Below, in pieces: positions 24,923-30,156 of a DNA stretch of 64,000 nt; within the stretch, counting starts at the first letter, position 1, and each line of letters begins with the position of its first letter. The DNA comes from Luteitalea sp. TBR-22 (lineage in GTDB: Bacteria; Acidobacteriota; Vicinamibacteria; Vicinamibacterales; Vicinamibacteraceae), in NCBI RefSeq assembly GCF_016865485.1, contig NZ_AP024452.1:5106501-5170500 (forward strand), given 5' to 3'. A program made the position numbers and the translations under genes. The notes beneath the pieces are model-generated. The model was not told where the DNA came from and did no database searches. It saw only the letters and a list, made by a program, of their open reading frames with translations.

Positions 24923-25480
24923 ATGTCCACTCGATTCCTGTTGACCGCTCTGGCTGTACTGACCCTGTCGGGGGTCGCGCACGCCGAGACGCACTCCGAT
25001 TTCAACAAGCAAGTCGACCTGTCCTCGATGAAGACGTTCGAGTTCAAGGCGCAGCGACGGTTCTCGAAGGACCCGGTGGCCGACAACCCGATCTGGGCCG
25101 ACCAACTGCGCATGGCCATCCGCAGCGACTTCGCCGCGCACGGCATCAAGGAGGTCAGCGGAGGGAACCCGGACTTCTTCGTGGCGTTCTATGTCGGCCT
25201 CAAGGATCGCTACGACGTCCGCTACGTCGACTACGGCTTCCCGCTGTGGCACCGAGGCCTGCGCGGGGCGTGGGGATGGCCGCCCGCCTACGACACGTGG
25301 GCGGTGCCCTACACCCAGTCGACGCTGATCATCGACGTCATCGACGCCCGCACCAACCAGTTGGTGTGGCGCGGCTATGACAAGGACGCGATCGACCTCA
25401 AGAAGACCGAGAAGGACTTCGGCAAGGCCGTCGAGAGCGTCCTGAAGCGCTTCTACCGGGACAGCCGTCAGTCGTCGTAA
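24923..25480 (+). CDS. DUF4136-family exported protein
   Basis: 185 residues from ATG 24923. A signal peptide (FLLTALAVLTLSGVAHAE) precedes the DUF4136 fold: DFNKQVDLSSMKTFEFK, then DQLRMAIRSDFAAHGIKEV, PDFFVAFYVGLKD and a C-terminal STLIIDVIDARTNQLVWRGY with an acidic/basic helix. DUF4136 proteins are periplasmic or outer-membrane-associated, often lipoproteins; there is no lipobox Cys here, so it is probably soluble in the periplasm. The gene leads the series containing the sortase pair, 29 bases before the substrate gene. Confidence 0.85.
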   Translation: MSTRFLLTALAVLTLSGVAHAETHSDFNKQVDLSSMKTFEFKAQRRFSKDPVADNPIWADQLRMAIRSDFAAHGIKEVSGGNPDFFVAFYVGLKDRYDVRYVDYGFPLWHRGLRGAWGWPPAYDTWAVPYTQSTLIIDVIDARTNQLVWRGYDKDAIDLKKTEKDFGKAVESVLKRFYRDSRQSS

Positions 25481-25509
25481 CCATCCATCCGCATCGAAGG
25501 AGAATCACC

Positions 25510-26184
25510 ATGACACGTCGAGACCTCGCATGTTCCATCGCCACTGCCGTCGTGGCGCTGACCGTCTGCGCCGGCGCCCAGGCGCAGCCCAGCGATCGCC
25601 AGACCTTCCTCACGTTCAGCGGCCCTGTCGAAGTGCCCGGGCGCGTGCTGCCGGCGGGCAAGTACGAGTTCCGCCTCGTCGACGACGAGTCGAGCCGCGA
25701 CATCGTGCAGATCCGCAGCGGCAACCGGGTCATCGGCACGTACCTCACGGTGCCGACCGACACCCTGAAGACGCCCGACAAGTCGTTCGTCACGTTCGAG
25801 AAGCCCGTCGCCGGGTCGCCGCTGGCGATTCGTGCGTGGTTCTACCCGGGCGATACCGTCGGGCAGGAGTTCGTGTACCCCAAGCGCCATGCGGTGGCGA
25901 TCGCCAAGGCCGCGCAGCAGCCGGTCAAGGTGACGACCGACGCGATGGCGCCGCACATGAGCGCCGAGGAGCCGGCCGCGCAGCAGCAGGCGGTGGCCGC
26001 CCTGAAGGCTGCGCCGATTCAGGTTGCACGACCACAGGGTGACGATGTCGAGATCGTGGAGATGGCGCTCGTCGAGCTGCCCAGGACGGCGAGCACGCTG
26101 CCACTGCGCCTTCTCGTCGGGATCGCACTGATGGGCCTCGGGTTCGTCGTCGTCGGCCAGCGACGCGTCACGATCGGCGCGTAA
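25510..26184 (+). CDS. Exported protein with C-terminal LPRTA sortase signal
   Basis: 224 residues from ATG 25510 (AAGGAG upstream). It has three parts: a signal peptide (about 1-25, ending AQAQ), a beta-rich domain (about 26-130) with VLPAGKYEFRLVDDE and FYPGDTVGQEFVYPKR, and a Gln/Ala-rich linker (about 135-188). The C-terminus is a classic sortase cell-wall sorting signal: LPRTA at 190-194, a hydrophobic helix (about 198-216) and a short basic tail QRR. The class D recognition motif is LPNTA, so LPRTA fits the sortase three bases downstream. The globular domain resembles a recurrent, uncharacterised acidobacterial exported family. The final anchoring partner is unknown. Confidence 0.8.
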   Translation: MTRRDLACSIATAVVALTVCAGAQAQPSDRQTFLTFSGPVEVPGRVLPAGKYEFRLVDDESSRDIVQIRSGNRVIGTYLTVPTDTLKTPDKSFVTFEKPVAGSPLAIRAWFYPGDTVGQEFVYPKRHAVAIAKAAQQPVKVTTDAMAPHMSAEEPAAQQQAVAALKAAPIQVARPQGDDVEIVEMALVELPRTASTLPLRLLVGIALMGLGFVVVGQRRVTIGA

Positions 26185-26187
26185 GTC

Positions 26188-26814
26188 ATGGAGCGCACCG
26201 ATCGGCACGGGCACGCCGCCAGCCTCGGGTGGACGCTCGTGGCGATCGGTGTCTGCCTGACGGCGACGGCTGGCGCCACCTACTGGGACATGTGGGCGTT
26301 CCAGCAGGCGATGCGCCAGGTCGTCGCCAGGGAACACCGGGCGTCGACGTCGGCGGGCGAAGAGGCAACCGCGGGGCACATCGGGTTCCCGTGGATCCTG
26401 TCCGTCCCTCGGCTCGACCTGTCGGTCAGCGTCCTCGAGGGCACGGCGCCGGAGACACTGCAGGTGGCCGCCGGTCACATCCTCGGCACGGCGCGTCCGG
26501 GGTCACCCGGGACCACCGGCATCGCCGCCCACCGGGACACGCTCTTCCGGCCGCTGCGACGGATTCGCGCCGGGGATGCGCTGGAGATCCGGACGGCCGG
26601 ACGTCGTTTCGGCTACGTTGTCACCAGCACCACGGTCGTCGCCCCCGGAGACACGCGGGTCCTCGCGTCGAGCTCCGAGGAACGCGTGGTCCTGGTCACC
26701 TGTTACCCGTTCTGGTTCGTCGGTGCGGCGCCCCACCGCTTCGTGGTGTTCGCCCGACGCGTCGAGTCACCGGTACGGCCGCCGGCACCAGGCCTTCGCC
26801 CGGAGGAACGATGA
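26188..26814 (+). CDS. Class D sortase (Gram-negative)
   Basis: 208 residues from ATG 26188, three bases after the substrate stop. One N-terminal membrane helix (about 13-32) anchors it with the catalytic domain in the periplasm. The catalytic triad is visible: His115 in AAHRDT, Cys172 in VVLVTCYPF and Arg184 in PHRFVVF. The early strands IPRLDLSVSV-like (VPRLDLSVSVLEG) and GHILGTARPG match class D enzymes. The enzyme cleaves the LPxT-A bond and transfers the protein to a nucleophile. In this envelope the acceptor (peptidoglycan peptide or other amine) is not known. The stop overlaps the next ATG. Confidence 0.9.
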   Translation: MERTDRHGHAASLGWTLVAIGVCLTATAGATYWDMWAFQQAMRQVVAREHRASTSAGEEATAGHIGFPWILSVPRLDLSVSVLEGTAPETLQVAAGHILGTARPGSPGTTGIAAHRDTLFRPLRRIRAGDALEIRTAGRRFGYVVTSTTVVAPGDTRVLASSSEERVVLVTCYPFWFVGAAPHRFVVFARRVESPVRPPAPGLRPEER

Positions 26815-27599
26815 ACATGCGCGTCACCACGAGTCGCTGCTGCATCGCCATGACGATCGCCTGGCTCGCGACGTCGGGCGGGCCGGAGGTCGGGGCGCAG
26901 GCGACCGAGACCATCATGTTGCGCGGCCGCGCCCAGACGCTGCATCTCTACGGCCGGCGCGGCGCCCCACCGGTCATCGTGTCGAGCGGCGACGGGGGAT
27001 GGATCCACCTGGGACCGCAGGTGGCGGAGTTCCTTGCCAGCCGGGGCTTCTTCGTCATCGGCGTCGACGTCAAGGCGTACCTCGAGAGCTTCACCACCGG
27101 CGAGGCGACCCTGCGCCCCGAGGACGAACCCGGCGACTACAGGGTCCTGGCCCAGCATGCGGCACGGGGCGCCAGCGAGCGGCCGATTCTCGTCGGTGTC
27201 TCGGAAGGTGCAGGTCTCTCCGTTCTGGCAGCGACCGACCCGGCGACCAAGGCAGTCATCGGCGGCGTGATCGGCCTGGGGCTGCCCGACCTGAGCGAAC
27301 TCGGCTGGCGTTGGCGTGACAGCCTGATCTACCTCACGCACACGACGCCCAACGAGCCGACCTTCAGCGCGACCAGCGTGATCGCCCGGGTCAGCCCTCT
27401 TCCTGTGGCGGTGATCCATTCGACGCGTGACGAGTTCGTGCCCCTGGCCGAAGCGCAACGGATCGTCGGGGCGGCCGCGGAGCCCAAGCGCTTCTGGGTG
27501 GTGACGGCATCGGACCACCGCTTCAGCGACAATCGGCCCGAGTTCGAGCGCCGGCTCGTCGAGGCGATCGAGTGGGTGCGGATCCATGCCCCGAAGTGA
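26811..27599 (+). CDS. VirJ/AcvB-type periplasmic serine hydrolase
   Basis: 262 residues from ATG 26811 (ATGA overlap with the sortase; GGAGGA upstream). The signal peptide is about residues 1-29. The alpha/beta-hydrolase core has the VirJ hallmark SSGDGGW, GFFVIGVDVKAYLESF, nucleophile elbow GVSEGAG and a late acid/His pair (HSTRDEF, TASDHRF). AcvB proteins of alpha-proteobacteria hydrolyse lysyl-phosphatidylglycerol in the periplasm and are encoded with the LPG synthase. The same pairing occurs here with MprF. This version has a single VirJ domain, like VirJ and the C-terminal half of AcvB. Confidence 0.85.
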   Translation: MNMRVTTSRCCIAMTIAWLATSGGPEVGAQATETIMLRGRAQTLHLYGRRGAPPVIVSSGDGGWIHLGPQVAEFLASRGFFVIGVDVKAYLESFTTGEATLRPEDEPGDYRVLAQHAARGASERPILVGVSEGAGLSVLAATDPATKAVIGGVIGLGLPDLSELGWRWRDSLIYLTHTTPNEPTFSATSVIARVSPLPVAVIHSTRDEFVPLAEAQRIVGAAAEPKRFWVVTASDHRFSDNRPEFERRLVEAIEWVRIHAPK

Positions 27600-30156
27600 C
27601 CCGATGGTGTCCGACAGAATGCGCCGCGCGGCGCCGATCGCCGTCAGCCTGGTGCTCCTCCTGGCTGCGCTGGACGTGCTGCGGCTCGAGCTGCGCATGC
27701 TGGCCTGGCACGACGTGTCGGCCGCCGTGCGCAACGTGCCTCCGTCGCGACTCGGGCTCGCCGTGCTGCTCACAGCCCTGAACTACCTGGCGCTCACGGG
27801 GTACGACGTGCTGGCGTTTGCGTACATCGGGAAGAGGCGACCCACACGACACATCGCAGCGGTCTCGTTCCTGGCCTACGCAGTGTCGAACAGCCTCGGT
27901 CTCGCGATGCTGTCCGGTGCCTCGGTGCGGTACCGCTTCTACACCCGGTGGGGAGTGACCGCCGAAGAACTCGGTCGCATCGTCTTCTCGTACTCGGTGA
28001 CGTTCTGGCTCGGGCTGCTGGCGATGGGAGGCGTCAGCCTCATCGCGACGCGACTCCCGGCCGAGGTGCCGTGGGTAGGAGGGCATGCCTTGGCACCGGT
28101 GGGCTGCGTGCTGGCCCTGCTGCCGGTGTCGTACGTGATCGCGGCGGTGCGTCGACGCAGGCCACTGAGGGTGTGGCGGCTGCAGGTGACCCTGCCGTCG
28201 CCGCGTCTGGCGCTTGCGCAGCTCGGACTCTCGATGCTCGAGTGGACGCTGGCCGGGACCGTGCTGTACGTCCTGCTGCCCGCGGGAAGCATCCCGTTCC
28301 TTCCGTTTCTCGGCCTGTTCCTGGCGGCCGTCCTGGTCGGGATGGTGAGCCACGTCCCGGGCGGCCTCGGCGTGTTCGAGGGACTGATGGTGTTGCTGAC
28401 CCGGCCGTACCTGCCATCCGCAGCGCTGCTGCCGTCGCTCGTGGCGTTCCGGGCTGTCTACTACCTGCTGCCGCTGTCGATTGCTCTGGTCGGCCTGGTG
28501 GTCGACGAGGCCCGGCAGCGGCGGGGCCAGGTGGCCCGGCTCGGCAAGGCGGCGGGACGCGTGACGGTCCGGCTCACCCCGGCGGTCCTGGCGGTGTTCA
28601 CCTTCGCCGCCGGGCTGATGCTGCTCCTTTCCGGGGCGACGCCCACCGCTCCGGGACGGCTGCAACTGCTCCACCAGTACCTGCCTCTGTCGATCATCGA
28701 GGCCTCCCACTTCGTCGGCAGTCTCGTGGGCGCCGGTCTGGTCGTTCTGGCGCAGGGCGTGGCGCGACGCCTCGACGCGGCGTATTACGCGGTGGCGCTG
28801 GCGATCGTCACGGGCATGGTGACGTCGCTCCTCAAGGGGTTCGGCTACGAGGAGGCGGCGCTGCTGCTGCTCGTGCTGGCGCTGCTGCGGGTGGCTCGCC
28901 CGGCCTTCGACCGCCCGGCCTCGTTCTTCGACACGCGCTTCTCTCCGCCCTGGATCGCCGCCGTGGTCGGTGCCGTCGGTGCGTCCGTGTGGTTGGGCCT
29001 CTTTGCGTTCGACCACGTGGATTACTCGCACGAACTCTGGTGGCAGTTCGAACTGCAGGGCGGCGCGCCGAGATTCCTGCGCGCGTCGGTCGGCGCCGCG
29101 GTCGTGATTGCGCTGGTCGCCCTGCGGCACCTCACGTCGCGGGCGCCGTACGCGGCCCCGCCGGCTACCGATGCCGATCTGATCGACGCCGACCGGGTCA
29201 TCGCCGCGCAGTCGGCAACCTCGGCCTTCCTCGCGCTCCTGGGAGACAAGTCGCTGATGTTCAACGACACGCGGAGCGCCTTCATCATGTACGCGGTGCA
29301 GGGGCGCACCTGGGTGGCTTTCGGCGACCCCGTAGGCCCGCCGTCGGAGGCCCCGGCGCTCATCCACCGGTTCCTCGATCGATGCGCCGACTTCGGGGGC
29401 GTGCCCGTCTTCTACGAGATCGGCAAGACGCGCCTGCACATGTACGTCGACCTCGGGCTCGGCTTCGTGAAACTCGGAGAAGAAGGCTGCGTCGACCTCG
29501 CGCGGTTCTCGCTCGAAGGCGGCCGTGCTGCGAAACACCGGCAGGCGCTGCGCCGGCTCGAGAAGGCAGGTGCCGCCTTCCGCATCGTGGAGTCGCCGGA
29601 CGTCGCTTCGGTGATCGACCAGCTACGCGCGGTCTCCGACGATTGGCTGGCCGCGAAGGCGGGCGCCGAGAAGGGATTCTCGCTGGGCTTCTTCGATCCC
29701 CGCTACCTGCGTCGCTTCCCGATCGCCGTGGTCGAGCGCGACGGCCGCATCCTCGCCTTCGCCAACCTGCTGCCGGGCGCCGATCGGCAGGAGCTGTCGA
29801 TCGATCTCATGCGCTACCACCGGGATGCACCGACCGGCGTGATGGAGGCGCTGTTGGTGCACCTCCTGGTGTGGGGGCGCGCGCATGGCTACCGTCGCTT
29901 CATGCTGGGGATGGCTCCGCTCTCCGGCGTCGAGGCCTCGCCCATCGGGCCGTTGTGGCACCGATTCGGGGCCTTCGTGTACGAGCACGGGGAGGCGGCC
30001 TACCACTTCCAGGGTCTGCGCGCCTACAAGGAGAAGTTCGATCCGGTATGGGAGCCACGGTACCTCGCCTACCCCGGCGGCTTCCGGCTGGCGCGCATCC
30101 TCGCGGACGTGTCCGCGCTGATCGCCGGCGGATACCGGCACATCTTCGGCAAGTGA
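27586..30156 (+). CDS. mprF: Lysylphosphatidylglycerol synthase/flippase MprF
   Basis: 856 residues. The N-terminal about 520 residues carry many membrane helices of the flippase module (SFLAYAVSNSLGLAMLSGASVRYRFY, SHVPGGLGVFEGLMVLL). The C-terminal soluble synthase (about 540-850, DUF2156) has MFNDTRSAFIMYAVQGRTWVAFGDPVG, GRAAKHRQALRRLEKAG and NLLPGADRQELSIDLMRY. It transfers lysine (or alanine) from aminoacyl-tRNA to phosphatidylglycerol and flips the product, lowering envelope negative charge and giving resistance to cationic peptides and acid. ATG 27586 overlaps the hydrolase gene by 14 bases; ATG 27604 is an equally possible start. Confidence 0.93.
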   Translation: MPRSDPMVSDRMRRAAPIAVSLVLLLAALDVLRLELRMLAWHDVSAAVRNVPPSRLGLAVLLTALNYLALTGYDVLAFAYIGKRRPTRHIAAVSFLAYAVSNSLGLAMLSGASVRYRFYTRWGVTAEELGRIVFSYSVTFWLGLLAMGGVSLIATRLPAEVPWVGGHALAPVGCVLALLPVSYVIAAVRRRRPLRVWRLQVTLPSPRLALAQLGLSMLEWTLAGTVLYVLLPAGSIPFLPFLGLFLAAVLVGMVSHVPGGLGVFEGLMVLLTRPYLPSAALLPSLVAFRAVYYLLPLSIALVGLVVDEARQRRGQVARLGKAAGRVTVRLTPAVLAVFTFAAGLMLLLSGATPTAPGRLQLLHQYLPLSIIEASHFVGSLVGAGLVVLAQGVARRLDAAYYAVALAIVTGMVTSLLKGFGYEEAALLLLVLALLRVARPAFDRPASFFDTRFSPPWIAAVVGAVGASVWLGLFAFDHVDYSHELWWQFELQGGAPRFLRASVGAAVVIALVALRHLTSRAPYAAPPATDADLIDADRVIAAQSATSAFLALLGDKSLMFNDTRSAFIMYAVQGRTWVAFGDPVGPPSEAPALIHRFLDRCADFGGVPVFYEIGKTRLHMYVDLGLGFVKLGEEGCVDLARFSLEGGRAAKHRQALRRLEKAGAAFRIVESPDVASVIDQLRAVSDDWLAAKAGAEKGFSLGFFDPRYLRRFPIAVVERDGRILAFANLLPGADRQELSIDLMRYHRDAPTGVMEALLVHLLVWGRAHGYRRFMLGMAPLSGVEASPIGPLWHRFGAFVYEHGEAAYHFQGLRAYKEKFDPVWEPRYLAYPGGFRLARILADVSALIAGGYRHIFGK

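Follow-up and report, generated by a model that had tools for sequence, protein, structure and literature searches.

The window, a 64,000-nt stretch of the Luteitalea sp. TBR-22 genome (Acidobacteriota, Vicinamibacterales; NZ_AP024452.1, 5,106,501–5,170,500; positions below refer to the window), contains five consecutive genes on the forward strand that are the subject of this analysis. The first (24923–25480, +) encodes an exported DUF4136 protein of 185 aa (PF13590, E 7.8e-30) and ends 29 bp before the gene of an exported 224-aa protein (25510–26184, +; identified from its reading frame and translation, with 20 homologues aligned), here called the substrate. Three bases separate the substrate stop codon (TAA, 26182–26184) from the ATG (26188) of a sortase gene (26188–26814, +; PF04203, E 1.5e-26), the 208-aa product of which consists of an N-terminal helix, by eye a probable membrane anchor, followed by the catalytic domain. 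The start of a gene for a VirJ-type hydrolase (26811–27599, +; PF06057, E 1.4e-7) lies over the sortase stop, with 4 bp shared (ATGA, by eye). The fifth reading frame (27586–30156, +) we take, from its sequence, to encode an MprF-like lysylphosphatidylglycerol synthase/flippase. With intergenic gaps of 29, 3, −4 and −14 bp, co-transcription of the five genes is likely. The preliminary description of this DNA had placed at 25510 a substrate ending in LPRTA, a helix and QRR, and a sortase three bases after it; both statements agree with the reading frames.

The substrate is built from a signal sequence, a domain of ~100 residues, an Ala/Pro/Gln-rich linker and a C-terminal sorting signal. Judged by eye, the Sec signal peptide (25510–25584, +) is probably cleaved after AQA (residue 25). 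The last 37 residues, VELPRTASTLPLRLLVGIALMGLGFVVVGQRRVTIGA, comprise LPRTAS, a hydrophobic stretch at about 197–215 and QRR at 217–219. In a set of 28 tails, P and T of the LPRTA motif (residues 190–194; 26077–26091, +) were invariant and L nearly so, an invariance of P and T that is partly built in, as the set was picked by an LPxT-like pattern. The membrane helix and basic QRR tail (26098–26181, +) belong to a match to our tail profile at E 2.5e-11. This profile was made from the 28 related tails, the window tail among them, with seeds taken from sortase neighbourhoods by the LPxT-like pattern; unlike tails elsewhere could therefore be missed. A single seed (L032) belongs to a genome outside the order, and a Silanimonas locus (L036) was omitted because it is proteobacterial and has an MPDTA motif. 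By analogy with class D sortases, cleavage would be expected between Thr193 and Ala194.

The curated sorting-signal models miss the window substrate, with scores of 12.9 bits against a cut-off of 15.9 for the LPXTG anchor and 13.8 against 32 for the LPxTATN signal. TIGR03788, the model of class GN sortase targets, aligned only to residues 160–214, near the C-terminus (12.2 bits, cut-off 551.65). No Pfam or NCBIfam family matched the substrate above its cut-off and the substrate alignment found no match in the PDB, in keeping with the earlier view of an uncharacterised exported domain. A low-confidence structure model from two sequences (pLDDT 40.8) placed a helix at 196–222 and strands in the ~100-residue domain. 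DUF2911 matched 11 of the 21 members of the substrate-domain family at E values up to 1 (best 0.0017) and the window substrate at 14.7 bits (cut-off 27), so that a kinship with DUF2911 is only a lead.

The assignment of the neighbouring enzyme to the sortases is firm at the level of the superfamily (PF04203, 93 bits, cut-off 26.6; TIGR01076, 78.2, cut-off 39.35). Its structure model (pLDDT 80) has the sortase fold and gave 137 PDB matches at E ≤ 0.001; all 50 among the matches listed were sortases, and several sortase classes were matched at similar E-values. The catalytic residues His115 (codon 26530–26532, +), Cys172 (26701–26703, +; in the sequence TCYPF) and Arg184 (26737–26739, +) were invariant in 34 aligned sequences, which confirms the triad as originally proposed.

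The class of the enzyme was less clear-cut. It had been described as class D, and class D is indeed the nearest and best-scoring class, with an adjoining gene for an LPxTA protein as found with class D enzymes; what did not stand is the strict assignment, as no class cut-off was reached and a tree grouped the enzyme away from class D. The class D model NF033746 scored 110.6 bits on the window sortase (cut-off 165) and 103.9–135.4 bits on ten relatives, one of them proteobacterial, so that all 11 enzymes tested fell below the cut-off and class D in the strict sense was rejected. With the SrtD LPxTATN-specific model NF058671 the window sortase reached 118.2 bits (cut-off 140), and three of the ten relatives exceeded the cut-off. 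Class GN was rejected as well (TIGR03784, 85.7 bits, cut-off 158.25); the upstream VIT/vWA sortase target (TIGR03788) that belongs to that class is missing. In a tree of 48 rows, the window sortase fell on a long branch (0.97) together with acidobacterial, Steroidobacteraceae, Silanimonas and class GN rows, while the class D rows (Bacillaceae/Planococcaceae) and the class C rows were on the other side of a split with support 93/87. This support is short of the star given by the tree tool; the class D rows numbered only four, three of them with deviant composition, and three of the six class C rows were assigned to that class by us and not by their records. On sequence criteria the enzyme is thus best called class D-like, class D being an approximate, nearest label.

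The window genome (one contig, 6.47 Mb) encodes one PF04203 sortase. When the best 150 of its 234 candidates were scored with the tail profile, the window tail (E 2.5e-11) was followed at a distance by the next best candidate (E 0.027). As far as these searches reach, the genome holds one sortase and one tagged protein, encoded by adjacent genes, which supports the dedicated pair of the preliminary description. The genome also encodes a tail-less paralogue of the substrate domain (C1:5033179–5033802; L157 from 1635 onward), after which a further unfamiliar stretch continues in frame. The pair is patchy within the genus: among four other Luteitalea genomes in the sample, only G003 had sortases, two in number, with 47% and 44% identity to the window enzyme, and the search for sortase relatives in the order found none in G016, G037 and G047. 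In G003, one sortase is followed by a differently built tagged protein (L078) and the other has no visible tail beside it (L079).

Across the order, relatives of the window sortase were present in 34 of 149 genomes, a count that includes one partial match (G067, residues 16–99, E 7e-4) that is probably not a sortase. The sorting tail was found in 29 of the 149 genomes (best ≤51 candidates per genome scored), 28 of which also had the sortase (Fisher p 2e-23). In the lone tail genome where no sortase was found (G011), the contig with the substrate stops 1.1 kb downstream. Among 39 loci examined (the window, L032 from outside the order, and L047–L083), a tail was visible at 27. Five of the 12 loci without one are at an upstream contig end (L048, L055, L059, L069, L081); the genome of L048 has a cut tail at a contig start, and that of L081 a tail on another contig. 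The remaining seven (L050, L052, L068, L074, L079, L080, L083) have room upstream of the sortase and no visible tail, the open frames that hold the sortase matches of L068 and L083 being 132 and 111 aa long, respectively. Three Steroidobacteraceae relatives (L033–L035) showed no tag within ~4 kb.

The association held in the phylum. PF04203 sortases were detected in 80 of 396 Acidobacteriota genomes, and the tail (E ≤ 1e-4; best ≤19 candidates per genome scored) in 55 of the 396. All 55 tail genomes possess a sortase, compared to the background of 80/396 (Fisher p 3e-48, a value not to be taken literally because the sampled genomes are related), and with the same scoring of the best ≤19 candidates per genome, none of the 316 remaining genomes yielded a tail. 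The preliminary description had set the co-occurrence of LPxTA tail and sortase in relatives beforehand as the test on which the proposal could fail, and the proposal passed it in the order (28/29) and in the phylum (55/55). Based on the sortase positions of the tail-bearing genomes, with two partial matches in G275 left out, 55 of 69 tails were within 3 kb of a sortase, spread over 49 of the 55 tail genomes. Of these near tails, 54 were on the strand of the sortase (47 upstream, 7 downstream) and one was on the other strand.

In 25 of the 80 sortase genomes, the profile found no tail. By eye, 16 of these 25 have a weaker tag-like protein beside the sortase (G153 by profile only), with tags such as MPQTAS, MPVTGG, LPATGS and similar, or at the end of a protein of 668–936 aa. 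Three of the large tagged proteins were tested, and two were VIT/vWA proteins while one (L277) was not. At L270 and L273, the sortase is preceded by a VIT/vWA protein (691 and 671 aa, respectively) that resembles the proteobacterial class GN targets, which indicates that both kinds of sortase system occur in the phylum. At L277 (1697–3832), the protein adjoining the sortase has 711 aa, an MPVTAG tail and a putative peptidoglycan-binding domain (PF01471). No tag was visible by eye in the other nine genomes (G102, G179, G333, G386, G393, G435, G442, G450, G489), of which G102 has its locus at a contig end.

The tail behaves like a suffix that is joined to different domains. Scoring the best ≤17 candidates per genome and leaving out a 47-aa fragment at a contig start in G039, we found tail-less relatives of the substrate ectodomain in seven genomes of the order in which no sortase was found (G018, G039, G058, G124, G138, G141, G144). 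Tail-less copies are also encoded in sortase-bearing genomes, for example L157 in the window genome, L159, L161–L164, L166, L167, L171, L174 and L179–L182, and hence tail and sortase are separated there by paralogue and not by genome. Tailed and tail-less copies thus have the look of distinct paralogues. G133 has three ectodomain copies, two of which are cut by contig ends. Conversely, at 20 loci of the phylum outside the order (from 19 of the 55 tail genomes), nine sortases were accompanied by a domain of the window type and 11 by another ectodomain (by eye), in some cases a repeated type and in others a short acidic stretch. The short, acidic, low-complexity ectodomains with the same tail at L263, L265 and L269 (by eye) recall a Planococcus protein encoded next to a class D sortase, the 'processed acidic surface protein'. 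A common tail on differing domains, present only where the enzyme occurs, is the reported logic behind LPXTG, PEP-CTERM and GlyGly-CTERM (PMC3237569). Given the co-occurrence of tail and sortase and the existence of tail-less relatives, the LPRTA tail very probably serves as a sorting signal, with the neighbouring gene encoding its enzyme.

At most loci of the order, a further gene accompanies the sortase. A vWA gene was located immediately upstream of the sortase in 26 of the 39 loci; at nine of the 26 the two genes share exactly 4 bp (start codons being first-in-frame guesses). It was detected with a local profile built from five proteins, and all five vWA proteins tested were over the TIGR03436 cut-off. 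None of nine vWA proteins inspected by eye showed a sorting tail. The gene is absent from the window and from 12 other loci of the 39, one of which (L081) is at a contig end, and the substrate gene is directly beside the sortase at the window, L049 and L071. Outside the order, a vWA match was found at three of the 20 phylum loci (L251, L252, L254), hence the gene is characteristic chiefly of the order. That vWA recurs with two kinds of sortase, as a separate gene in the order and within the target in class GN, is worthy of note.

The outer neighbours of the pair are probably co-transcribed genes and not conserved components of the system. The DUF4136 gene was rejected as a component, since no relative was present in the compared loci of other genomes (tblastn, E 1e-6). 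For the VirJ gene, the ten nearest VirJ loci of other genomes (L301–L310) were compared: an MprF gene was beside VirJ in eight of the ten, and no sortase relative was found in the stretches of up to 1.5 kb on each side. Hence, the VirJ–MprF pair, which occurs without a sortase elsewhere and is absent from the compared sortase loci of other genomes, was likewise rejected. In other genomes of the order (L301–L308), VirJ and MprF are paired with no sortase in the stretches compared, and the sortase stop overlaps a VirJ start only in the window genome among the loci compared.

Sortases are textbook enzymes of Gram-positive bacteria, where they staple proteins to the cell wall, and the host here, a soil bacterium, had been described as Gram-negative. 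An outer membrane is supported at the sequence level by a BamA match over its cut-off in the window genome, in line with that description. The LptD model gave no match in this genome; it recovered LptD in just 2 of 14 control genomes and the miss is therefore attributed to the limits of the model.

We propose that the substrate would be exported by the Sec route, lose its signal peptide and stay anchored in the inner membrane through its C-terminal helix. The membrane-anchored sortase next to it would then attack the Thr193–Ala194 bond through Cys172, as the conserved triad and motif suggest. Most likely, diaminopimelic acid, either in peptidoglycan or in a precursor of it, would resolve the acyl-enzyme with its side-chain amine, and a covalent bond would then tie the exported domain to the thin wall in the periplasm. 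The LPNTA-specific class D enzyme of Bacillus is reported to cleave after Thr and to transfer its substrate to the m-diaminopimelate of the wall (PMC3297441). DapF is present in the window genome, so diaminopimelate is probably made and the acceptor of the Bacillus class D enzyme probably available. Two partial FemAB matches in one 440-aa frame (31.9 and 24.2 bits, cut-off 24) leave room for an amino-acid bridge in the wall. We hold it as close to certain that sortase and tail form a recognition pair. Peptidoglycan as the acceptor, argued from the Bacillus enzyme, has our guarded preference, and the explanation as a whole, a dedicated acidobacterial pair tethering its substrate to the periplasmic peptidoglycan, we regard as reasonably probable. 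Counted against it are the absence of the vWA gene from the window, the missed class cut-offs and the long branch (0.97), as well as the partial FemAB matches, the sortase loci with room upstream and no tail (7/39), the Steroidobacteraceae relatives with no tag, the tail-less domain copies in sortase-bearing genomes and the 25 of 80 sortase genomes with no profile tail, nine of which show none by eye either.

Other fates of the substrate are conceivable. The sortase may cleave the tag and pass the substrate to an amine other than that of peptidoglycan, which might belong to an aminolipid, to a glycolipid of the outer membrane or to a partner protein, for instance the vWA protein; the product would be lipid- or protein-linked. 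We consider this unlikely overall. In its favour is the vWA gene directly upstream of the sortase at 26/39 loci (with 4 bp shared in nine), the product of which was over the TIGR03436 cut-off in five of five cases tested and had no tail in the nine inspected; vWA is, moreover, part of the class GN targets themselves, and the window sortase overlaps the VirJ–MprF pair. However, vWA is missing at the window and 12 other loci of the 39 and is present at only 3/20 phylum loci outside the order, and no compared sortase locus of another genome has the VirJ–MprF link. A more elaborate version, in which an acidobacterial envelope system of three parts bypasses the wall and joins the LPxTAS protein to a partner located in the periplasm or beyond it, either an aminolipid or the co-encoded vWA protein, appears to us rather doubtful. 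In the window genome the pair has no vWA gene beside it and adjoins the lysyl-lipid operon, and to our knowledge the chemistry of linkage to a vWA partner or an aminolipid is not known for diderm sortases.

Sortases can hydrolyse their substrate if no amine is at hand, and the enzyme might thus simply free the substrate from the membrane into the periplasm or the medium. The existence of tail-less domain relatives as plain proteins implies that a soluble form would be workable, but release requires no membrane tail to begin with, and that the entire tag is conserved together with the sortase speaks for transfer; we judge hydrolysis improbable. Least of all do we expect the tail to be a mere C-terminal membrane anchor, with sortase and substrate adjoining and never reacting. 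The scores of the tail under the curated sorting-signal cut-offs would fit such an anchor, but the strict co-occurrence and proximity across 396 genomes argue strongly against it, as does, to the extent that it is not built in by the LPxT-like selection, the invariance of the motif P and T in the 28 tails.

Dedicated sortase–target pairs in Gram-negative bacteria have been published (PMC3237569), and a 2006 paper reported one sortase-related enzyme in a small proteobacterial subclade (PMC1586193). Since such pairs are already known from class GN with its VIT/vWA target, the acidobacterial LPxTAS pair is not new in kind. The class GN system (TIGR03784/TIGR03788) resembles it in having a dedicated sortase that adjoins a single target in a Gram-negative host, and in the link between vWA and sortase (PMC3237569). 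A further likeness is the close spacing of target and sortase genes, which overlap in three of four class GN plasmid loci. The class GN tag, however, is on one large VIT/vWA target, whereas in the window it is on a small unlike protein; most loci examined from the order, though not the window, have vWA as an independent gene ahead of the sortase. With the class D sortases of Bacillus (SrtC/D, BasI), the window system shares the LPxTA motif, the substrate gene beside the sortase and the best class score (PMC3297441, PMC4498605). It differs from them in the outer-membrane host, the unrelated substrate domain and the lack of a two-component pair alongside, and the window enzyme and its ten tested relatives are all under the class cut-off (11/11); in the tree, the window enzyme is separate from the class D rows, four in number. 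The suffix of motif, helix and basic tail is also reminiscent of rhombosortase/GlyGly-CTERM and exosortase/PEP-CTERM, where one-to-one pairs likewise are reported to tend to adjoin (PMC3237569); there, the processing enzyme is intramembrane, whereas in the window system it is a cysteine sortase.

In the open-licence literature we found no account of an acidobacterial sortase or LPxTAS system; the one trace was a table row in a Solibacter genome paper ('Sortase 6 1 6.0'), which we take to mean six sortases in that genome (PMC3174227). A sortase is carried by 80 of 396 genomes of an outer-membrane phylum, usually beside a tagged protein (within 3 kb by profile in 49 genomes, by eye in a further 16). 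What a sortase acylates in a two-membrane cell becomes testable in the window system, which offers a single enzyme with a single substrate, a built-in control in the form of the tail-less paralogue, and relatives that also encode a vWA partner. Outside the phylum, the proteobacterial Silanimonas sortase at L036 (4379–5113) is followed by a protein that ends in MPDTAG, a helix and RKRG, possibly a further dedicated pair.
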